A stretch of DNA of 64,000 bases from Photorhabdus luminescens subsp. luminescens (GTDB lineage: Bacteria > Pseudomonadota > Gammaproteobacteria > Enterobacterales > Enterobacteriaceae), in assembly GCF_001083805.1 (NCBI RefSeq), contig NZ_JXSK01000002.1:1-64000 (forward strand), in the 5' to 3' direction. This document shows positions 36,762 to 63,452 of this stretch, piece after piece. The position numbers and the translations under genes are program-made. Below the pieces are notes generated by a model. That model saw only the letters and a list, made by a program, of their open reading frames with translations, was not told the origin of the DNA and did not search any database. The first letter of the stretch is position 1. Every line of letters begins with the position of its first letter.

Positions 36762-37064
36762 ATGAAAATCATCTCAGTCAGTACATTAAAACAGTTCTGG
36801 GAAACGTATCCCGATGCTGAACAACAGTTAAAAGCATGGTTTGACGAGGCCAAGAAAGCAACTTGGAAAACCCCTGCTGAAATTAAAGCCCAGTACCGCA
36901 ATGCGAGTATTCTAAAAAACAATCGCGTGGTATTTAACATTAAAGGGAATAGCTACCGCCTGATAGTTTCCATCTTTTACCCCGCTGGCTGGGTGTACGT
37001 AAAATTCATTGGCACACATAAGCAATACGATGCTATAGATGCCAATACCGTAGAACCGGAGTAA
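36762..37064 (+). CDS. higB: HigB-family toxin (ribosome-dependent mRNA interferase)
   Basis: The 100 residues match the HigB toxin family. The core VVFNIKGNSYRLIVSIFYPAGWVYVKFIGTHKQYDAID shows the conserved N-x-YR--- strand and the terminal HK-YD motif that forms the catalytic face. These toxins cut mRNA in the ribosome A site. No Shine-Dalgarno sequence is visible before the ATG. The gene lies inside the prophage tail operon but in opposite orientation, with the antitoxin gene three bases downstream. Confidence 0.9.
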   Translation: MKIISVSTLKQFWETYPDAEQQLKAWFDEAKKATWKTPAEIKAQYRNASILKNNRVVFNIKGNSYRLIVSIFYPAGWVYVKFIGTHKQYDAIDANTVEPE

Positions 37065-37067
37065 ATC

Positions 37068-37439
37068 ATGCATATTAAACCCATCCGCACCGAACAAGAC
37101 TATCAAGCAGCATTGAAGGCTGTTTCGCCACTTTTTGATAACCAACCAGAAATCGGTTCTCCTGAATTTGATTACATAGAAGTCATGGTTTTGCTGATTG
37201 AAGCATATGAGACTGAGCATTTTCCGATTGACCCGCCAGACCCGATTGAAGCTATAAAATTCAGAATGGAACAATCTGGGTTAACAGCAAAAGACCTGGT
37301 ACCCGCCATCGGTAAAGTCAATCGTGTATACGAAATACTTAATCGCAAACGTAGCCTTACGCTACCGATGGTATGGAATTTACATAAAATGTTCGGAATA
37401 CCAGCGGAAAGCTTAATCAAACCCGCTAAACACGCTTAG
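37068..37439 (+). CDS. higA: HigA-family antitoxin
   Basis: The 123-residue protein has a helical N-terminal part that binds the toxin (HIKPIRTEQDYQAALKAVSPLF) and a C-terminal XRE helix-turn-helix (MEQSGLTAKDLVPAIGKVNRVYEILNRKRSLTLPMVWNLHKMFGIP). This is the usual HigA type found downstream of HigB. It would bind both the toxin and the palindrome before higB. A 9-bp hairpin (gatggctca/tgagccatc) follows the stop codon at 37443-37464 but has no T-run. Confidence 0.92.
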   Translation: MHIKPIRTEQDYQAALKAVSPLFDNQPEIGSPEFDYIEVMVLLIEAYETEHFPIDPPDPIEAIKFRMEQSGLTAKDLVPAIGKVNRVYEILNRKRSLTLPMVWNLHKMFGIPAESLIKPAKHA

Positions 37440-51076: not shown

Positions 51077-52793
51077 GTATTGAGCCTGCCGTTATTCCAG
51101 TGAATAGTTTTTTGGCATCATCTTCATCAATTGGAAACGCTGTAGTCACTATCGCTATGGCGCTTTCAAGTGAGAGTAATCCCTCCGCATATTTTGTAAC
51201 TACATCCACGATACTGGATACCTGAGCACCGTTCAGGGATTCTTTTGCCATTCCTTGACTATCATGATCTGATTTATGTTCTGTATTACTGATATCGTCA
51301 TCATCATTAAATGAGTCCTTAACATCCTCGCTGTCGTTTTCGATATCATTAATCTCAAGGGAGTGATACGGGCTGTTTTCATCATTGGCTAGACGTTCGC
51401 GGGCTTCATCTGTACTAATCACATTTGCAGCAATTAATACTGAATCAGTATCTGCATCGGTCTTACGTATGTTGGCTTTTTGTTCATCAGTCATTTGATA
51501 TAGCGGTTCGAATGTAAAGCTAATATCAGGATCAATTTCGCCAAATTCGGATAATTGAATAATATCAATCATTCGTGCCAGCCCATCTTTCACCAACATT
51601 TGCAAGGTAGCAATAAAGTCATAGAAAACACGGATTTCCCCATCAGATGACGCATTTAGCCCACTCGGTGTGATACCGGTAAAAATAACTAACGGTATGC
51701 TACTGACTGAACTCATATGTTCCTGAGACTGGGCTTGCAGTGAATCAAGGCCGCTCAGCGGTGTATTGAACTGGAAAAACTCCTCTTCATTATCCAGCAT
51801 CATTACTCCTCGGTTATCACGCATCTTATTAAACAATTCTGCACGATAAATTAACTGATCGGGACTATTCGTCTGTCCTTGTAATGTAGATTGAAGATTG
51901 GTTTTAAATCCAGACACAGAGAATGAATGGATCAAATCAGATACGCTATCACGTGTCCTATACCAGTTTTGTACATAAGATTCTGCAATCTGAGTCAGTG
52001 ATAAGCCGCCGAAATTATACGCAGGTTTAAGCATATCGGTTAATGGCCGGGTGATAAATGTAATCAAACGACTGTCATGTACAGTCTTTGCCATCACATA
52101 CCAACTTGACGGCTTATAGAAGTCATTGCTCAACGGGTTGTTAGCGTTATAAATCCCCGGATATGTCCATATTGGTTCAATAACGTTAAAACCAATAAGA
52201 CTTCCTTTTGTGATTTTTTTAGGTGACAGAAATAATCTAGACTCAAGTTCAACCGGATCGGTTGCAGCAAGCACACCTTTTGATGTTCGCACGTCAATAT
52301 AAATCTGACCGCGCCCAAAAAAGCCATCATGCTCAATGGCCTTTTTTAACCGTTCACGAACGTGGAATTTTTCAATAGCCTCATTAAGCACTTTGATTTT
52401 ATCGGATTTGTCATCATCCCCCACTGATGTTAGCTTTATCCACTTACGAGTCATTTCTCCTGCAATGGTGCCTACCATTTTCCGATATTCGGGTAATTGT
52501 GACAGTTGGGCCAGATAAGGATAACCGGGAAAACCCACATCTCCCGATATACCACCTGTCCCCGTCACATATTCATAAGGCGTAGAATCCATTGCCATTA
52601 ATGCGGACAACTGTTCAGTGGGAACAACACCAGGAGGGGGCCTGTACGGTTCAATAGGCCGAGCTATTTTTCGCTCTGTTATCGATCCGACAGTATCCGG
52701 ATGTATATTCATCGGCTGAGGCGCTGATTGATCAATAGCCTGTTCAACTGGCAAAGCCTCCGCTTTCTTTTTATGTCTGAATCTGAAAAACAT
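51036..52793 (-). CDS. Portal protein (DUF1073 type)
   Basis: The 585-residue protein forms the DNA entry ring of the capsid. It matches the DUF1073 portal family: GGISGDVGFPGYPYLAQLSQLPEYRKMVGTIAGEMTRKWIKL, KAIEHDGFFGRGQIYIDV, and RGVMMLDNEEEFFQFNTPLSGLDSLQAQSQEHMSSVSSIPLVIFTGITPSGLNASSDGEIRVFYDFIA. A disordered acidic C-terminus follows. Its ATG overlaps the terminase stop by one base. Confidence 0.9.
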   Translation of the reverse strand: MFFRFRHKKKAEALPVEQAIDQSAPQPMNIHPDTVGSITERKIARPIEPYRPPPGVVPTEQLSALMAMDSTPYEYVTGTGGISGDVGFPGYPYLAQLSQLPEYRKMVGTIAGEMTRKWIKLTSVGDDDKSDKIKVLNEAIEKFHVRERLKKAIEHDGFFGRGQIYIDVRTSKGVLAATDPVELESRLFLSPKKITKGSLIGFNVIEPIWTYPGIYNANNPLSNDFYKPSSWYVMAKTVHDSRLITFITRPLTDMLKPAYNFGGLSLTQIAESYVQNWYRTRDSVSDLIHSFSVSGFKTNLQSTLQGQTNSPDQLIYRAELFNKMRDNRGVMMLDNEEEFFQFNTPLSGLDSLQAQSQEHMSSVSSIPLVIFTGITPSGLNASSDGEIRVFYDFIATLQMLVKDGLARMIDIIQLSEFGEIDPDISFTFEPLYQMTDEQKANIRKTDADTDSVLIAANVISTDEARERLANDENSPYHSLEINDIENDSEDVKDSFNDDDDISNTEHKSDHDSQGMAKESLNGAQVSSIVDVVTKYAEGLLSLESAIAIVTTAFPIDEDDAKKLFTGITAGSIHEETNEKPSAPAN

Positions 52794-54094
52794 TAAATTC
52801 GCCCCAACAGATTTTTAGATATACGAAGTGGGTTGTTTTTACCTGTGATATAACCATCCAGCGAATAACGTACCGCATCCCAACAATGGTTATGTTTGTC
52901 GAGCACCACCGGCAGGACTTCACCGGTCAGACGGTCGGTCTTGTATGAATAGAGTCTTGCCTCATCAATCATGTGCTTACAGCGTTCATGAATAATGATT
53001 TCTTCAAAGCCTTTAAGGTAAGTGATCCCGTCTTCGACACTTCCGGGCCATTTTGTGGCGCCGTCAATGATGAACCCCTGACGCGACAAGTAACTGATTG
53101 TTTCAGGTCGGCTGCAATCACCATGAATAGGCCACTTTCTAGCCTCTGGAATTGAGTCATAGAACTGGGGCATCTCGTCCAATTCAACTCCGACGCCATA
53201 GGCTTCATATTCAATATATAGTTTGGTACCGATAATGAAGCAGCGAATTAATGTTGACGGGTCATTCGCGAAACCAAAGTCAGCCCCATAGAAAAGTCGA
53301 TCAGCTTCTAGCCATAGCTCATCAGAAAATGCTTCAACCCGGTACTTGCCAGAGAAAATAACCGCTTCACTGAGTGCTTTTGGCAATCCAAGCCAAATAT
53401 GCTCATACGCTTCATAGTCGATGCGTTTGCAATATTCCATCTCTTGTCGGAGTACGTCAGGGAAAAAAGCGTTATCGCAATAGTTAACTTTTCGAATAAT
53501 CACACCACCATCGGGCGGATCTTCCTGATGCCGGATCATCAGTTTGTATGTCGGGTCTTCCTCCTCGCGAGGATTAAAAGAAACCCAGACTTCGGATTTA
53601 TTGGCGCGAACTGTCGGACCGAGGATATCCCAACTATCTTGTGATACCGTTTGAGCTTCCTCTACCCAACAGATCTTAATGCCATGCATCGACTTGATGC
53701 TTTGAATATTGTTTCGAAGACCTTTAAACGTGAAACGAGTGCCATTCCGACCTTCTATCTCGTTATTCTTGACTTTGTAGAAGTGGGACAGCCCAAGATC
53801 AATAACTTGTGCCTCAAGCAGCGCAAGGACGGAATCGTTAATAGAGTTTTGGAATTCGCGCGCGCAGAGAATCGTCATTGGTTCTATTACGCCCAACAAT
53901 ACCAGCGCACGAGCAATCTCTACCGATTTACCGCCACCCCGCCCGCCATACGTCCAACGCCAACGGACAGAACCTAATGCACGGTCATATAAAACCTCTG
54001 TCGCCCAGTCACTACTAAAGGCGTACAGAACACCATCAATTATGACCGGGCTATCTGTTTTCCCTCGCGGAGCTTCTCCATGTGAGAAGCCCAC
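52793..54094 (-). CDS. Terminase large subunit
   Basis: TerL packages DNA with ATP and cuts concatemers. The 433 residues show the adenine/Walker A region [21 protein letters not shown] (GGRGGGKS), the Walker B strand [13 protein letters not shown], and the C-terminal nuclease with [15 protein letters not shown] (first Asp) and [11 protein letters not shown]. The start overlaps terS by 55 bases. The family is the TerL of headful-packaging phages such as P22/Sf6-like; the packaging type is inferred. Confidence 0.92.
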
Positions 54095-54756
54095 ACATCA
54101 GCCGGGCAATTCGCAGGGGTCACAATGCAGACTTTTCCGTAACTCAGTCCAGCAAGATCGACATTGACCTCAGCCTTATTGCTGCTCATGTCGATACCGG
54201 TAAGCTGCGCAGCGTTCTTAATATTCGGCGCAACTTGTCCGAATTTCTTATCTGCTAACGCTTCTTTCCCGGCGCGAAATGACAATTCAGCTAAATGTCC
54301 AGCATTGAATGAAACAAGTAACGCCGCTTCGTTTCTCAGTTCTCGAATGCGGGCTTTTATTTCAGGTCTGCGCATCAATATGGATGATTGAGAATCAGCG
54401 CGAGCCGGAGAGTAACCCGCGCATATTGCCGCCTCTTTCATCGGCATACCCGCCGCTATATTCTGAGCAAACTGTTCGTATTGCGGTTTTAGAATCCCTG
54501 CGGTTCCCTGCGAACTTTCTGCGAACTTCTCAAGTTCATGTATATTGCTAACACTGCCTATTGTCTGACTTTGCGCCTGGTTCGCATCAGGTTCGCACTG
54601 CGTACTTTCAACAATAGTGCGAACCCACTCCTCAGTCTTTGCCCTCTTGCGGATTGCGGCATCACTAATACCGTGTTGTTTGGCAATCTCCCTGATTGAG
54701 AGAAGGCCAAAACGGTAATCACGCTCTATTCTCTCCCAGTCAGTATTTTTTGCCAT
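54040..54756 (-). CDS. Terminase small subunit
   Basis: The 238-residue protein opens with a DNA-binding helix-turn-helix ([32 protein letters not shown]). It continues with a terminase_2-like domain ([45 protein letters not shown]) and ends with a short strand-rich part that contacts TerL. It recognises the pac or cos site. It is the first gene of the head operon here. Confidence 0.88.
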
Positions 54757-54834: not shown

Positions 54835-55155
54835 TCAGTTATTGCTTAATTCGGCTTTCCGTCTGATATTTACCATTCGAACATAAAAATCATGCATATA
54901 TTTATAATTTTCTTCACGTTTATCAATAGCCTCAAAAGGCTTAAGCCACTCATCAACCTGAGATTTGCACGTAATAAAAGCATCATTCACTAACTTCTCA
55001 GGCAGTATGTCTGCTGATAATTTAGGAAGAACATAATCATTTAGACATGTTGTCATAGGATCTGCGTATTGGGTTTCCGAGTACCCAATACAAGGTAAAA
55101 TAAAAACAATCAGCAATCCGATAAGTTTTACGCAATTGAATATTTTTAACATCAC
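54835..55155 (-). CDS. Small exported protein, unknown function
   Basis: The 106 residues begin with a signal peptide (MLKIFNCVKLIGLLIVFILPCIGYS, cleavage near YSE). The mature helical part has two cysteines (TTCLNDY and FITCKSQ), as in the other exported protein at 37496. It has its own terminator and lies beside the sce7726/beta pair, so it probably belongs to the cargo rather than the virion. I do not recognise the family. Confidence 0.6.
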   Translation of the reverse strand: MMLKIFNCVKLIGLLIVFILPCIGYSETQYADPMTTCLNDYVLPKLSADILPEKLVNDAFITCKSQVDEWLKPFEAIDKREENYKYMHDFYVRMVNIRRKAELSNN

Positions 55156-55452
55156 TTCCTCCTTGCATGGGAGGATTATACATTAGGATTATCACTAGTA
55201 TGCGATAGATACAAAACGCCACCACGAGATGTGATGGCATGGGGATATTCCTGTAGCTACTCAGGGAATGGACACAGAAATAAGAATTTATCGTTAGAAA
55301 ATTATGTTAGTGAGGAAACATGAATAACATCACGATTATTAATTCATATCTTCATCTATATTAAGAAAATACGATCCAGCTCTCTATGTGTTATCTAACG
55401 AAAGGTAATAGACTGTCTATTCTTTAACCTTATCAAAATTAGGAGATAAACA
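55156..55452. other. Intergenic region before the beta-protein gene
   Basis: Some 297 bases of AT-rich sequence hold no gene. The promoters for the secreted-protein gene (-) and for the beta-protein gene (+) should lie here. A good ribosome site (aggag) precedes the latter. Confidence 0.4.
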
Positions 55453-56556
55453 GTGCTTGAAACAATTTCATATATCCCTATCTTAAAGACCAAAAGAGCT
55501 GAATTTAATGCATTAAATCAACTCGACACTTTTACGAAATCAAAGATTATTCCTCTATTAGAAATTGAGCCAGTTCCCATAGACCCTGACACAGATATCC
55601 CAGATAAAACATATAATGAAATGTTAAATGGGTTTGAGAGAAAAATTCTTTCTGGGTGTGATGGTATTCCTATAGTATTTTTAGATGGGATTTTAATCGA
55701 AGAGCAATTTATTGCTTCAACAGACACATATCCAATTGAAAATGCGATAATCCAAGCAAGAAACGCTGGGTTTAGAGTGATTCCGGTAACATCTCCGACC
55801 AGATCAGTTGATTATAAACAATCTATCAGCACCCTTGTGCAGAGCGAAATTTGCTTCAGATTAACAACCACTGATTTAGTCAATCCTCAGCTAATTACTG
55901 ATTATATCCATGAATTACAAATTACCCCTGAGCATATTGATGTAATTATCGATCTACGAGATATGCTATCAGAAAGTGATGTCAGCTCAGGGCATAGCAA
56001 AATACTTGCGTTGGGCTTGATTAATAACTTTAGCAACCTCCAGAGATTCCGTTCTATATCATTAGCATCAGGATCTTTCCCTATTGATTTGAGCGGCATA
56101 TCATTAGGAACTTACTCTCAAACTCGCTTGGAATGGACATTGTGGCAAGCTCTTCACTCTAGCGGACAGTTATTAAGAAACGTCATTTATAGTGACTATG
56201 GTATACAGCACCCTGATTATTCTCGCCTTGCAACTCGATTCCCCAGTGTTACCGCCAGTGTTCGATATACTGCCGATAGTGATTTTTTAGTATTTAGAGG
56301 GCAAGTTGCGAATCGATATGGCTATGAACAGTATGGCGCTCATAGTAAAGCAATTGTGACCCACCCTGAATACTCAGGAAATTCATTCTCTACGGGTGAT
56401 AAAGATATTGATAATTACGCGAGAGAATACACGCAATACCTTCAAGATCCTGAGGGAAATCACAAATTTGGCAGTCCAGAAGTTTGGAGGAGAATTGGAC
56501 AAAACCACCATATTACTAAGGTAGTCTCTCAGCTCTCCAATTTGTACGGGCTTTAA
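55453..56556 (+). CDS. Beta family protein (T4 beta-protein-like, sce7725-type)
   Basis: The 367-residue protein resembles the phage T4 beta-protein family. It begins LETISYIPILKTKRAEFNALNQLDTFTKSKIIPLLEIEPV, the barrel-like start of the family. Further motifs are GIPIVFLDG, VIIDLRDM, and a C-terminal SDFLVFRGQVANRYGYEQYGAHSKAIVTHPEYSG, ending in WRRIGQNHHI. No signal peptide. It starts at GTG or an equivalent start after AGGAG. The biochemical role of the family is not known to me. It faces the sce7726 nuclease-like gene and overlaps its end by 41 bases, a fixed partner in many genomes. Confidence 0.78.
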   Translation: MLETISYIPILKTKRAEFNALNQLDTFTKSKIIPLLEIEPVPIDPDTDIPDKTYNEMLNGFERKILSGCDGIPIVFLDGILIEEQFIASTDTYPIENAIIQARNAGFRVIPVTSPTRSVDYKQSISTLVQSEICFRLTTTDLVNPQLITDYIHELQITPEHIDVIIDLRDMLSESDVSSGHSKILALGLINNFSNLQRFRSISLASGSFPIDLSGISLGTYSQTRLEWTLWQALHSSGQLLRNVIYSDYGIQHPDYSRLATRFPSVTASVRYTADSDFLVFRGQVANRYGYEQYGAHSKAIVTHPEYSGNSFSTGDKDIDNYAREYTQYLQDPEGNHKFGSPEVWRRIGQNHHITKVVSQLSNLYGL

Positions 56557-57094
56557 GCTTTTTCCTGACCAAATCACGAAGCTCATCTGTATCTACAGTT
56601 TCTGCTAATTTATTCCATAACACACGCCGTGGTTTGCTTTTTAGACCACGGTCTTTACCTAAATCAGAGAAAATTTCCAGCATTTCCTCTTTCCATAGCA
56701 ACATAGAAAGGGATACTTTATCTATAGACGGATTAAGGCGATTGTGGCGCTCAGTATGTAAATGTATACCATTTCTTGTACCTTGCGTTACTATCTTAAC
56801 TCCCCACCAATCAGGAATAATCTCCATTGCTGGCTTAGAGTGAGTTTCAGAAACAACAAGAGTTACCTTATCCATAACCGATGAATAATATTGAATCTGT
56901 AATGGTAAACGGAGCAAGTTATCACTTTTACTTTTGATTTCATAACCATGCATAAGTCCATTAATCACCGTAATATCAGCACGGCTTGCTCCGAGACTCA
57001 TTGTAAACTCGTCAATAATCAATGTATCTGGATCTTTGTGATGCTCCTTCAGTATCTTAGAATGAACAGCACGCCGCACGTCTATGTCTTTCAT
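56516..57094 (-). CDS. sce7726-like protein with a PD-(D/E)XK nuclease core
   Basis: A 192-residue protein of the sce7726 type. The restriction-nuclease-like core is clear: Glu29 in IIDEFTMSLG, Asp40 in SRADITVING, and Glu52-x-Lys54 in GYEIKSKSDNLLRL, i.e. E - RAD - EIK. The following LRLPLQIQYYSSVMDKVTLVVSE continues the beta-alpha fold. It likely cleaves or binds DNA or RNA. It converges on the beta-protein gene. Together they look like an inserted module between the lysis genes and terminase, read as defence or exclusion by inference. Confidence 0.78.
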   Translation of the reverse strand: MKDIDVRRAVHSKILKEHHKDPDTLIIDEFTMSLGASRADITVINGLMHGYEIKSKSDNLLRLPLQIQYYSSVMDKVTLVVSETHSKPAMEIIPDWWGVKIVTQGTRNGIHLHTERHNRLNPSIDKVSLSMLLWKEEMLEIFSDLGKDRGLKSKPRRVLWNKLAETVDTDELRDLVRKKLKARTNWRAERLP

Positions 57095-57229
57095 TATCTT
57101 GTCTTTCTTTCCAAGGTGTTAATGTAACCGTTTTTGAGGCCAGGAACTTTAAACGCTAACTAAATATATAGCACTATTTTTTTCTTCGTCCTCTGACGTA
57201 AAGCCGATTTTAAGAAAAAATTCCAATAC

Positions 57230-57376
57230 TCAGTTAATGCACTGCCCCCTAACATACTCCAGCCACCCCAGTATCATTTGCTCTGAGGTGGCAATGTGTT
57301 CTATTCCTCAATTAGAAGGAGCTGCCTCTGGATGCGGTATCTTATCCTGCCAGTGTTCTTTTATCACTTCACTCAT
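57230..57376 (-). pseudogene. Small phage ORF broken by an in-frame TGA
   Basis: From an ATG that overlaps the stop of the previous small frame it reads MSEVIKEHWQDKIPHPEAAPSN, then TGA (57308-57310), then in the same frame GIEHIATSEQMILGWLEYVRG to a stop. The unbroken frame on both sides of one stop suggests a decayed small gene. Confidence 0.4.
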
Positions 57377-57605
57377 ACGTTTCATCCAGTCCGCCAGTTT
57401 TAATTGCTGTCTCTTTCTCTGATTTCAGTTTAGGGACATTAGTAAACGCCATTTTTGCAATGTATTTACCGAATTCGTCTTTGCTGATGATAAGCGTTTG
57501 ATCAAGGATCGTCTCTGAATTGTTGTGCTATACATAGTATTTACTGAGTCGTGTTTGCGTTTCCCTGTCTTTCTCGAAGTAAATCAGATCAACTTCTGTT
57601 TTCAT
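57369..57605 (-). pseudogene. Small phage ORF broken by an in-frame TAG
   Basis: The ATG overlaps the Rz stop (ATGA) and has an AAGGTG ribosome site. The frame reads MKTEVDLIYFEKDRETQTR, then after 25 codons TAG (57528-57530), then ETILDQTLIISKDEFGKYIA to a final stop at codon 79. It looks like a coupled gene of the lysis operon that has one amber codon; a suppressed or mutated state cannot be told apart. Confidence 0.5.
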
Positions 57606-58063
57606 TTTGTCACCTTGTAACATTCAGTTTTTATGTAATCCTGCAAATATCTTAATTTTGCTCGGTCATTGATGATGCCTTCTCGGATATCAAGAACAGT
57701 TGATCCAGTTTCTCCAGTGAGTTCGACTGTGGTTGTAGTGCCCACGCCGCCGGAGGTAGTGGCCTCACACACGGGACAGGTGGCCGCGATGCGCAACCGA
57801 CGACGACCGGCAGCAACATCATCACGCAGAGCATCATTTTCAGATTTAGCATTAGCAAGTTCCTTCGTATGTTTCACATCCAACTCGTTCAACATCGTGA
57901 TGTGAGAGTTCTGATAGTCGATAGTGTCTATGAGTTGCTGAATGTCTTCTTGCTGCTGCTTTGTAACACGTTGCTCTCTCTGTAACTCAGAGTGATGACA
58001 ATACGCTGTCAATGAAATAAGGATCAACGCTAGTATCGTGTAGTAATGAAAGCTAAATTTCAT
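57602..58063 (-). CDS. Rz-like i-spanin
   Basis: I start at MKFSFHYYTILALILISLTAYC (153 residues); a longer frame adds 11 residues without support. It has one N-terminal membrane anchor, then a periplasmic coiled coil (REQRVTKQQQEDIQQLIDTIDYQNSHITMLNELDVKHTKELANAKSENDALRDDV) and the Rz cluster ATCPVC. Rz spans the periplasm with Rz1 and fuses the membranes in the last step of lysis. It follows the endolysin gene. Confidence 0.85.
   Translation of the reverse strand: MKFSFHYYTILALILISLTAYCHHSELQREQRVTKQQQEDIQQLIDTIDYQNSHITMLNELDVKHTKELANAKSENDALRDDVAAGRRRLRIAATCPVCEATTSGGVGTTTTVELTGETGSTVLDIREGIINDRAKLRYLQDYIKTECYKVTK
57652..57837 (-). CDS. Rz1-like o-spanin, embedded in Rz
   Basis: In another frame inside Rz lies a short lipoprotein: MMLCVMMLLPVVVGC, with a lipobox ending in the lipidated Cys, followed by a proline-rich start (PPVP, PLPPAA) and a short C-terminal part. 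Mature length is 47 residues. Embedded, proline-rich Rz1 genes are normal in lambda-type phages. The exact start (first or second Met of MM) is open. Confidence 0.78.
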   Translation of the reverse strand: MMLCVMMLLPVVVGCASRPPVPCVRPLPPAAWALQPQSNSLEKLDQLFLISEKASSMTEQN

Positions 58064-58155
58064 AGCAACAACGCCCCAGAAACCAACCCCATCCATCTTT
58101 ACCTATCAAAGTAAGAACAAAACCAAACAGAAACAATCTTCCGGCCAACGAATGT

Positions 58156-58692
58156 CTATTCACCCAACCCCCAGCAAGTTAATTCCGATTCCTGGGCGCG
58201 TCGCTCAACCTGACCATAACAGCCGTTTGCCTGCCCTTTGGTTTGTCGGCAATCTCGACCATCGTCAAATACCCAGCGCTTTATCTCAGCACAAGCGCCT
58301 TTCTTATCTCCGGCATTCAGCTTTCGATAGAACGTGGAAGAGAAGCATTTCGATGGGCCAATGTTATACGGGCAAAAGCTGGCAATACCTGCTATCTGAG
58401 GTTCAGTTAATGGCACCCACACATTGCGTTTTACCCATGCGATGGACTGCTTTGCTTCTTGTGCATTGAGGTCACGGCACTGATTCGGTATTAACCTCAT
58501 CCCTTGACGAACAGGAGCTCCATCAATCCGAGTCACACCTCGGCAGATTGTCCAGACTCCACCCGCATCCTGATACGTTGATAACCGGTTACCCTCTTTC
58601 TCGTCCAAAAACTGAGACAGTATCGCCATAGCACCTGCACCAGAGAGAGCCAGACCGATAACCGCAGCACTTAACTTACTGGTCTTTGTCAT
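58156..58692 (-). CDS. SAR endolysin (R21-like lysozyme)
   Basis: The chosen ATG (MTKTSKLSAAVIGLALSGAGA, 178 residues) has GGAG upstream and overlaps the holin end. The N-terminal hydrophobic, glycine/alanine-rich segment (about 8-27) fits a signal-anchor-release domain. It is followed by the R21 triad with exact spacing: Glu-8 residues-Asp-5 residues-Thr in EGNRLSTYQDAGGVWTICRG. Eight or so cysteines suggest disulphide control. It cuts peptidoglycan after release from the membrane. Confidence 0.88.
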   Translation of the reverse strand: MTKTSKLSAAVIGLALSGAGAMAILSQFLDEKEGNRLSTYQDAGGVWTICRGVTRIDGAPVRQGMRLIPNQCRDLNAQEAKQSIAWVKRNVWVPLTEPQIAGIASFCPYNIGPSKCFSSTFYRKLNAGDKKGACAEIKRWVFDDGRDCRQTKGQANGCYGQVERRAQESELTCWGLGE

Positions 58693-58858
58693 TGCGGCTA
58701 AACTCCCGATGCTTGTAGTACCAGTTGACCCCAAAGGTACCAACAGTGCAGATAATGCCAATAATGATGGCCCAGTCGTTCAGCGACAGAGCGCCAAGCA
58801 TTGCTGTAAAAGCGCCCCAAGTATATGCAATGGGGCTGGTGTATTTGTCCATACGCAT
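58676..58858 (-). CDS. Holin / pinholin with dual start
   Basis: A 60-residue protein with two membrane segments (about 8-25 and 29-47) and a charged end (YYKHREFSRNDKDQ). It begins Met-Arg-Met-Asp-Lys, with two possible starts as in S21 (MKSMDK) and lambda S (MKM); this is known to give a holin and an antiholin. The ribosome site TAGGATGG lies four bases before the first ATG. The pairing with a SAR endolysin points to a pinholin. Confidence 0.82.
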   Translation of the reverse strand: MRMDKYTSPIAYTWGAFTAMLGALSLNDWAIIIGIICTVGTFGVNWYYKHREFSRNDKDQ

Positions 58859-59463: not shown

Positions 59464-60507
59464 TCATATCATCGCCCCAATTTCCTGCTTAGTTTGATTA
59501 AAGTATTCTTCTTCTAATTCTACACCCAAGACACGACGATTCAGCTTTAGTGCTGCTTTTAGTGTTGCGCCCGATCCCATAAAGAAATCTGCCACTAGAT
59601 CTCCTTCCCGGCTGCTAGACTGGATAATATGTGCCATCAAATCGGCTGGCTTTTCACAAGGGTGTTTGCCAGGGTAATACTGAACAGAGGGAAACATCCA
59701 TACATCGGTATAGGGAACATCAACAGTTACAGAAAACGGGCGACGCAGCAGCCCATATTCCCGACTCAATTCTTCATACTGGCGTGATAAAGTAAGATGA
59801 GATTCTACTAACTCATGATACAACCTGTTTAATTCTCCGTTCTGGTGTTTTTCTCTGGCTATCCGAGCGAACAGTACTCGCAGCTTTTGGTAATCCACTT
59901 CATTGGGTAATTGCCACTGGCTATCACTGAACCAGTGACTGGCCATCTGTTTTCCCGTAGCAGCGTTAATTTCTTTTGCTGTGACACCCAACGCCTTTCG
60001 TGCATCGCGAAAATAGTCCACAAGAGGTTTAAAGACATATTGCTTAAGCTCGCGGCATTTGTGGAAATATCCATCACCTTTAGGTTGATAAGGCCCCTGA
60101 TAATGTTCAGCAAATATGATCCGTTCCGTGGAAGGGAAATAAGCCCTTAAACTTTCTTTATTCTGTCTGCGCCACGGACCAGAAGGTTTTGCCCAGATAA
60201 TGTGGTTAAGCACATTGAACCGTTCACGAACAAGGATTTCCGTATCAGACGCCAGACGCGAACCACAAAACATATACAAACTGCCGTTGGGTTTCAGCAC
60301 ACGCCAGAATTCAGTCAGTACTTCATCCAGCCATGCAAGATAAACCGTTACATCCTCCCATTGTCTGTCCCAACCACACTCTTTTACCCGAAAATAGGGC
60401 GGATCAGTGGCAATTAAGTCTATGCAGTTGTCTGGTAACATTTTGATAAATCGTAGAGAGTCGTCATTAATTAATGTGATATCACTTAAATTCACAATAT
60501 TTTCCAT
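59464..60507 (-). CDS. DNA adenine/cytosine-N4 methyltransferase (beta class)
   Basis: The 347-residue enzyme has the catalytic motif TDPPYFR at about 34-40 and the SAM-binding FMGSG near 307, an order that marks the beta class of N6-A/N4-C methyltransferases. HIIWAKPSGPWRRQNKESLRAYFPSTERIIFAEH lies between, and KHPCEKPADLMAHIIQSSSREGDLVADFF near the end. The central part contains a target domain with LGVTAKEINAATG. I prefer the ATG of MENIVN: a GTG 22 codons upstream is inside a hairpin. No restriction partner is seen, so it is likely an orphan that guards phage DNA. Confidence 0.88.
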   Translation of the reverse strand: MENIVNLSDITLINDDSLRFIKMLPDNCIDLIATDPPYFRVKECGWDRQWEDVTVYLAWLDEVLTEFWRVLKPNGSLYMFCGSRLASDTEILVRERFNVLNHIIWAKPSGPWRRQNKESLRAYFPSTERIIFAEHYQGPYQPKGDGYFHKCRELKQYVFKPLVDYFRDARKALGVTAKEINAATGKQMASHWFSDSQWQLPNEVDYQKLRVLFARIAREKHQNGELNRLYHELVESHLTLSRQYEELSREYGLLRRPFSVTVDVPYTDVWMFPSVQYYPGKHPCEKPADLMAHIIQSSSREGDLVADFFMGSGATLKAALKLNRRVLGVELEEEYFNQTKQEIGAMI

Positions 60508-60608
60508 AAATCGATACTGGCTTACTCTCTGGTTAGCACAGAACAGGCGAATGGCTGGTGTTGTCAACTCCACCAGCCGTCCATTTCACCGCTTAAGAAG
60601 TTACCCCA

Positions 60609-62252: not shown

Positions 62253-63452
62253 TTACTTTTTATTAAATAAGTTAACGACGTTTGTATCTTGTTGTGTCGT
62301 AGATATATTAATACTATTCTTCAATTGTATTCTGGATTGAAAATCAAGTACCTGTGATTCTGAAAAAAATCCCTTAGGAACTGAACATAAATCCTCTAAA
62401 TCTCCTTTTGGGAAACCAAATTCCTCAAGAAGCGTTTTTTTACTAAAAGTTCCAGAATCCAATAATAGGTTCAAGCACCTAGGTAACAAACGAACCGACT
62501 CTGGTTTTCTAAGATCATCAAGCGGCTCTCCTTTTCGCCAACCTCTAGCAGAAATATTTTTATATAACCTCTGATATTCCAGAGAAGATATTAACTCTAA
62601 ATTTCTCGCTCTAAGGATCATAGATTGTGCCGACATCCCCCAGCGATTTTTTAAAGATATGAAATTCTGTAATGTAGGATATGGCGGAAGCTCTACAGAA
62701 AATGACTCTTCCGGCAACATGAAACTCGACGCAAACTTATGTGCTTGCTCTTCTATTGGATTAAAATTAATAGTATCAAATTTATTTATATATCGATGTA
62801 AGACTATATGACCTAATTCATGAGCAGCATCAAATCGACTACGATAGTAGTTATCTTTGTCACTAGCTAAAACCACATACGGTCTATTATCTAAATCATT
62901 CCATTGAGAATAGCCATCCATTACAGAACTACCTTGTTCAAATCTGGAACAGACTATCCCCGCATTCTCCATTACAAGCAATAGATCATCTATCGGTGCA
63001 ATACCTAATCCCCAAGCTTTCCTACACTCAAAAGCCATTCTTTCAATCAACTGATCATCTATCGCTCTGTAATCCTTTACGCTAAGATGAGGAATGTTAA
63101 CTTCTGGATAATCAAGATATTCTTGCATCTTACATGATAACTCTTGAAACCATCCCATGTATCGCTCTGAAGCAATACATAAGTCTTTTGCCGTGGTTGA
63201 AAGTGTTCGGAAGAATACTGGTTTTTTTTCGTACTTAACAATAGGCTTTGTGAACCAACTTACCGGGCAATTAAGAATCTGACTTAAGCTATGCAATACT
63301 TCTGCATCGGGGGAATGATTACCGTTTTCCCATTTGGTAATAGTTGATGGCGAACGATCCACTAACCTACCAAGGTTAATTTTCGATAATCCCCTCGCTT
63401 CTCTTATCTGTGTCAACCTTTCAGATTGGAAACCAGAAATTCCCACTCTCAT
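62253..63452 (-). CDS. XRE regulator fused to an ImmA/IrrE metallopeptidase
   Basis: The 399-residue protein has an N-terminal helix-turn-helix (about 8-62: LTQIREARGLSKINLGRLVDRSPSTITKWENGNHSPDAEVLHSLSQIL). The centre holds an ImmA/IrrE zinc peptidase with HELGH at 211-215 and a downstream NPIEEQAHKFASSFMLPEES that provides the third ligand. Proteins of this kind cleave a partner repressor or antitoxin on a signal. It lies 15 bases after the gene at the right edge and is probably co-transcribed with it. Confidence 0.88.
   Translation of the reverse strand: MRVGISGFQSERLTQIREARGLSKINLGRLVDRSPSTITKWENGNHSPDAEVLHSLSQILNCPVSWFTKPIVKYEKKPVFFRTLSTTAKDLCIASERYMGWFQELSCKMQEYLDYPEVNIPHLSVKDYRAIDDQLIERMAFECRKAWGLGIAPIDDLLLVMENAGIVCSRFEQGSSVMDGYSQWNDLDNRPYVVLASDKDNYYRSRFDAAHELGHIVLHRYINKFDTINFNPIEEQAHKFASSFMLPEESFSVELPPYPTLQNFISLKNRWGMSAQSMILRARNLELISSLEYQRLYKNISARGWRKGEPLDDLRKPESVRLLPRCLNLLLDSGTFSKKTLLEEFGFPKGDLEDLCSVPKGFFSESQVLDFQSRIQLKNSINISTTQQDTNVVNLFNKK

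Follow-up and report, generated by a model that had tools for sequence, protein, structure and literature searches.

What is the function of two converging genes, one for a beta protein and one for a small nuclease-fold protein, that lie between the lysis and packaging genes of a prophage? The question is raised by a gene pair of Photorhabdus luminescens subsp. luminescens, found on the first 64,000 nucleotides of contig NZ_JXSK01000002.1 (the whole stretch analysed, called the window here). The second gene belongs to the sce7726 family and is called cII below, after its homologue in the gop-beta-cII system. In the original prediction, made from the sequence of the window, the pair was proposed to be an undescribed defence or exclusion module. 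Defence is supported by homology, but the kind of module is already known, as gop-beta-cII and PD-lambda-2 are published anti-phage systems. The reading favoured here, which in our judgement has an even chance of being right, is that of an anti-phage module carried by the prophage: the pair would be the core, without the toxin, of a gop-beta-cII / PD-lambda-2 superfamily, with beta acting as a sensor that licenses cII. The defence role is suggested by sequence homology to these two validated systems.

Identity of the two genes

Both reading frames lie where they had been placed, with the same strands, convergence and 41-base overlap (Table 1). In a family scan, the first protein belongs to Beta_protein PF14350 (E 1.7e-56) and the second to sce7726 NF033832 (E 6.2e-56; 189 bits, the cut-off being 70). 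The PADLOC model PD-Lambda-2_C matches the first protein over nearly its whole length (1e-42), the PADLOC P4 beta model matches it weakly (6e-7 over 42 residues), and the second protein matches cII of gop-beta-cII (8e-26). The first protein had been labelled T4-beta-like; the annotated namesake is the beta of satellite phage P4, on which the PADLOC beta model scores 8e-188, and "T4" looks like a slip for P4.

The residues named as a nuclease motif in the small protein are present: E29, R38-A39-D40 and E52-I53-K54. When 30 sce7726 proteins drawn from gop-linked, M78-linked, orphan and sce7725-linked loci are aligned, E29, D40, E52, K54, D58 and Q66 are invariant in all 30, a pattern that fits PD-(D/E)XK nucleases. 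We take E29, D40, E52 and K54 to be the E / D / (D/E)-x-K motif of that fold. Searches by sequence for solved relatives gave, as the two best for cII, matches at E 0.39 and 0.66, and none for beta up to E 1. The structure predicted for beta is a triosephosphate isomerase (TIM) barrel with a C-terminal helical extension (predicted local distance difference test score, pLDDT, 91), in which eight alternating strand-helix units close the barrel. Among 30 beta proteins, D248 is invariant and D78 and D167 are present in at least 90%; these residues stand at the ends of predicted strands 8, 3 and 6, respectively. Asp at the three strand ends is conserved from P4 beta through PD-Lambda-2_C, and the window beta and P4 beta are 22% identical.

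Comparison with known systems

Rousset et al. 2022 (PMC9122126) report that the gop-beta-cII system protects Escherichia coli from lambda and P1. According to work cited there, P4 Gop is toxic without beta, and beta counters Gop; a toxin-antitoxin action is proposed for the system, in passages that give cII no part (PMC9122126). The window shares with it homologues of beta and cII that face each other tail to tail. In the P4 genome (NC_001609), cII converges on gop and beta, which share one direction (beta at 651-1718 on the plus strand, cII at 1746-2540 on the minus strand); P4 cII is annotated as sce7726, and the motif residues are common to P4 cII and the window cII. The differences are that the window pair overlaps by 41 bases, whereas P4 beta and cII are separated by a 27-base gap with an annotated terminator, that the window cII has 192 amino acids against 264 in P4, and that the window beta scores better against PD-Lambda-2_C than against P4 beta. 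Moreover, gop, which lies directly upstream of beta in P4, has no match among the window's open reading frames (ORFs) of at least 40 amino acids, nor in the window's genome at 1e-3, while the same model, as a positive control, finds gop in genome G142 at 1e-68. The locus is thus not a P4-type three-gene system; its mode of action would be that of the beta-cII portion.

The second system, PD-lambda-2 (Vassallo et al. 2022, PMC9519451), has a third component that is described there as "related to a P4 phage antitoxin" and is reported to be unneeded for toxin neutralisation and needed for defence against lambda vir. The window beta corresponds to this beta-like component C. In PD-lambda-2 a HigB-like protein A and an Xre-peptidase protein B are encoded upstream of C, whereas neither adjoins the window beta; in turn, cII faces beta in the window, while two PD-lambda-2-like loci (L047 and L048) have no cII within about 1.4 kb on each side. 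The third comparison concerns the sce7726-sce7725 pairs (NF033832/NF033831), whose nuclease belongs to the same family as that of the window. The sce7725 protein is a shortened, distant relative of beta (hhalign 98% global and 96% local, at about 16% identity), and the window beta has no NF033831 match at E 0.1. These pairs are co-directional with sce7726 first, unlike the convergent window pair.

A close described counterpart is in Rac-SA53 (KU052037), where genes annotated as beta and "CII phage-like protein" have the same two-gene, convergent, overlapping layout with no gop annotated. The proteins are 62.6% and 68.2% identical to those of the window, and the pair is essentially the same variant at a different prophage position. 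Near-identical copies of this Rac-type pair are found in 93 of 5426 E. coli genomes, at 94 places. A search of mostly open-access literature recognised no paper on a gop-less beta-cII pair or on the role of cII: sce7725/sce7726 proteins are merely listed among strain-specific or mobile regions in the relevant parts of PMC12457778 and PMC9394441, and gop beta cII is merely named in a list in that of PMC11291487.

Linkage of beta and sce7726 across genomes

The two families had been described as frequent neighbours in other genomes, and their linkage proves stronger than that: in a co-occurrence survey, beta or a beta-like gene accompanies sce7726 at all 34 places above the family cut-off. The order sample (394 genomes) holds sce7726 at 23 places in 22 genomes, all 23 adjoining a beta or beta-like gene; at 15 of these sce7726 faces beta, and at 8 it precedes a co-directional beta-like gene (all five such partners scanned with NCBIfam are sce7725). 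The phylum sample (398 genomes) holds 14 above-cut-off places, all linked (11 convergent, 3 co-directional); three places are common to both samples, so that the distinct total is 34. Two of the five below-cut-off phylum places (L077 and L078) have no beta within 1.1-1.5 kb on either side, and the other three (L079-L081) have no match to the cII model built for this analysis. At 33 of the 34 linked places the two genes overlap or lie at most 27 bases apart; at one they are 482 bases apart.

Seen from the other side, 16 of the 21 beta places of the order sample adjoin sce7726, and the remaining five comprise two at contig ends, two that are PD-lambda-2-like and one that stands alone. Five near-full beta genes have no cII within about 1.4 kb on each side; four carry a gene for an HExxH protein directly upstream, and one (L061) is alone. 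Beta and cII distances also correlate, with r 0.89 across 54 convergent loci and with r 0.57 in the 24 loci whose cII proteins share less than 50% identity, values reached by 0 of 1000 permutations in either set. Beta is found in 16 and sce7726 in 47 of 72,556 plasmid records, a distribution that speaks neither for nor against the anti-plasmid role also proposed in the original prediction. Among 50,697 phage records, 5 match the window beta and 14 the window cII at 1e-5.

Layout, overlap and tree

After removal of identical sequences, 71 distinct cII proteins were retained, many of them from near relatives and hence not independent events. Their genes are convergent with beta in 55 cases and point the same way as an sce7725-type gene in 12, and for the other 4 no beta was detected. 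Overlap is the rule in the convergent pairs (47 of 55), and 35 of the 55 overlap by at least 30 bases, 34 of these in one common register, with Enterobacterales, Bacillota and actinophages included. Common descent is enough to account for this single register. Ten close relatives share an overlap of 41 bases, and in these the third codon position is better conserved inside it than outside (beta 0.75 against 0.51, cII 0.90 against 0.47), as expected if both frames code.

In the sce7726 tree (70 rows, as L103, with a 109-amino-acid piece of beta, was excluded here and from the counts of upstream genes), the co-directional kind forms one clade of 12 with support 100/100. Orphan, M78-linked and gop-linked pairs require several changes, with 8 for all labels against a mean of 30 after shuffling; the tree is unrooted and some of its long branches are unsure.

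The position upstream of beta

Of the 54 convergent loci in which beta has 290 amino acids or more, 14 encode an HExxH protein (M78/ImmA-IrrE type) directly upstream of it, 3 carry gop or a gene resembling it there, and the remaining 37, which include the window, have neither. One of the three (L007) was called gop-like by hand from its size, place and hydrophobic N-terminus, and has no match to the PADLOC gop model. Loci were counted as having neither, and are called orphan here, when no gop was present and no HExxH protein of more than 120 amino acids ended between -70 and 150 bases from the start of beta, so that some of the 37 have other upstream genes (L055, L082, L090) or little upstream DNA (L099, 362 bases). 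In the window, no co-directional ORF of at least 60 amino acids ends within 150 bases upstream of beta. A bridging locus (L083) unites a PD-Lambda-2_B protein (1e-75), beta and a convergent cII at one place, and the upstream protein of L046 is nearest to PADLOC capP (2e-26). At L090 (1444-3296) a staphylococcal-nuclease/Excalibur protein is encoded 65 bases upstream of the beta of a beta-cII pair, possibly a third kind of effector in this position.

The prophage also carries a RosmerTA-like pair, at a distance of about 5 kb from beta-cII. RmrA (62253-63452, minus strand; PADLOC 3e-191) has Xre and M78 peptidase domains by Pfam, and RmrT runs from 63468 to past the window end (1.6e-61 for the part in the window; 223 amino acids in L148, at 468-1139) and has an uninterrupted reading frame in the genome. 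A split PD-lambda-2 served in trans by such an Xre/M78 partner was considered and rejected as a general rule, as only 2 of the 37 orphan convergent loci show an M78/Rmr match in the flanking DNA examined. The two are the window and L102 (Photorhabdus thracensis), and they are likewise the only two among the 24 of at least 12 kb. Elsewhere in the window, 18 kb from beta, 36762-37439 on the plus strand holds a HigB-size ORF followed by a 123-amino-acid protein that matches positions 1-122 of 402 of PD-Lambda-2_B (2e-44); these ORFs lack the peptidase part and a beta, and lie on the strand opposite their long neighbours.

Proposed function and alternative explanations

In the proposed mechanism, both proteins would be present in the lysogen, where cII would be a PD-(D/E)XK nuclease that is harmless alone. 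The putative TIM barrel of beta, with its conserved acidic residues on the catalytic side, would recognise a product of infection, candidates being a small molecule, an altered nucleotide or a phage protein. Beta would then license cII, by binding or by chemistry, to cut nucleic acid, so that either the phage that enters or the cell that it infects would be stopped. Beta of other lineages may additionally hold or trigger an extra effector encoded upstream, be it Gop or an Xre/M78-peptidase toxin-antitoxin. This reading draws on the homology to two validated systems, the linkage at all 34 places, the invariant motif residues of cII, the conserved Asp residues of beta, the bridging locus L083, the HExxH proteins upstream of beta genes without cII, the correlated distances and the beta genes split by IS1 (below). 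The sensor role of beta, the licensing step, the expression of both genes in the lysogen and nucleic acid as the target are inferred, as is defence itself, from homology.

The same pair could be a two-component toxin-antitoxin system, in which cII is a toxic nuclease, beta its antitoxin, and cII is released on infection to cause abortive infection. The antidote history of the family, seen in P4 Gop and beta, and the intact nuclease motif of cII would fit such a system, which we nevertheless consider unlikely. Among the 60 of 93 E. coli records that were listed, two have a prophage in which the insertion sequence IS1 interrupts beta and cII is intact, the two insertions differing in site and orientation (the other 58 have one beta and one sce7726 gene annotated). 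If cII is expressed in these prophages, it would be tolerated without a whole beta, which would argue against a plain toxin held by beta. In addition, the beta of an Acinetobacter plasmid is N-terminally short beside the insertion sequence IS30 and that of Lysinibacillus lacks its N-terminal part, both with cII intact, and Mx4 and X. koppenhoeferi have cII and no beta in the flanking DNA examined; all these cases of a broken or missing partner, those with IS1 included, were found by starting from cII or from the pair, an approach that favours such an outcome. The convergent genes also differ from usual type II loci, which form an operon. A related possibility is that beta serves as an orphan antidote protecting the prophage or host from the Gop-like or M78-type toxins of competitors, with cII as a hitch-hiking helper. 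It draws on the action of P4 beta against Gop and on the lack of a gop match in the window's genome, but it leaves unexplained the constant company of cII at the 34 places, the motif residues retained in 30 of 30 cII proteins and the correlated distances, and appears improbable.

Phage housekeeping, in which the pair would have no part in defence and would help the prophage to process, recombine or package its own DNA, is suggested by the location of the pair, flanked by lysis and terminase genes in Photorhabdus and adjoining Rz in Xenorhabdus. Against it, the Rac-SA53 pair sits between hok and replication-side genes, that of Gordonia phage Powerball between tail and integrase genes, and another is on a Rhodococcus conjugative plasmid; moreover, the few matching phage records point to an optional gene, and housekeeping is accordingly quite unlikely. 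As for a decayed remnant of a three-gene system that has lost its function, the gop or M78 partner is indeed missing beside beta, but both genes are open with conserved residues, and the 37 of 54 convergent loci without a recognised upstream partner include Enterobacterales, Aeromonas, Bacillota and actinophages, so that decay too is given little chance. The open orphan pairs of Pseudomonadota, Bacillota and actinophages suggest that beta and its nuclease can stand without a toxin.

Two side observations concern the mobile elements just named: in Gordonia phage Powerball (L003), HicAB lies within 1.2 kb of the beta-cII pair, and on the Rhodococcus conjugative plasmid (L145) the pair is near a DEAD/DEAH helicase gene and a DUF3800 gene.

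Significance

The kind of system is already known, and so is a gop-less pair annotated as beta and CII, in Rac-SA53. Within the literature searched, what appears to be new is the use of one linked pair to unite gop-beta-cII, PD-lambda-2 and sce7725-sce7726, the predicted TIM barrel of beta with its conserved acidic residues, and the argument against an antitoxin-only view of beta. More tentatively, and with somewhat less than an even chance, beta-cII may be the functional core of a single immune superfamily described under three names, in which a nuclease is licensed by a TIM-barrel protein, be it a sensor or an enzyme, the Gop and Xre/M78 toxin modules are interchangeable add-ons and the tail-to-tail overlap reflects an old, conserved coupling of the two genes. 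If so, beta could no longer be regarded as just the antitoxin of Gop. As beta and the nuclease seem able to stand without the toxin, their roles become directly testable with two genes. The joining of the three systems brings a specific prediction, that function depends on E52/K54 of cII and on the acidic residues in the barrel mouth of beta. Searches that demand gop would miss related loci.

Genomic surroundings

The host element is a Photorhabdus-type prophage, and the pair is correctly described as flanked by lysis genes on one side (Rz and lysozyme) and packaging genes on the other (terminase-type ORFs; Table 1). Its closest named relatives in the genome collection are in Photorhabdus thracensis (98%, sce7726) and Xenorhabdus lircayensis (94%). 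The order lysozyme, Rz, cII/beta, terminase is retained in L102 (P. thracensis) and L009. Promoter-like and terminator-like sites in 55150-57600 do not exceed those of shuffled sequences (8 against 9.0 +/- 3.2, and 1 against 1.3, respectively).

Table 1. Positions of the beta-cII pair and its flanking genes in the window
Feature	Position	Strand	Description
beta gene (PF14350, PD-Lambda-2_C-like)	55453-56556	+	367 amino acids; GTG start, AGGAG a few bases upstream
cII / sce7726 gene	56516-57094	-	192 amino acids; ATG start, PD-(D/E)XK-type motif E29...D40...E52-I-K54...Q66
Tail-to-tail overlap	56516-56556		41 bases; encodes the C-termini of both proteins
Rz	57602-58096		Family scan
Lysozyme	58156-58761		Family scan
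Terminase-type ORFs	52793-54756		Named by reading translations, without family scan

Between beta and the terminase genes, a 106-amino-acid ORF (54835-55155, minus strand) has a hydrophobic, signal-like N-terminus and no Pfam or PHROG match; among the loci searched it occurs only in the window itself (L001), L009/L017, L022 and L102. Beyond the lysis genes, an N6/N4 DNA methyltransferase is encoded at 59464-60573 on the minus strand (PF01555, 5e-44), and its relatives are found near several related beta-cII pairs.
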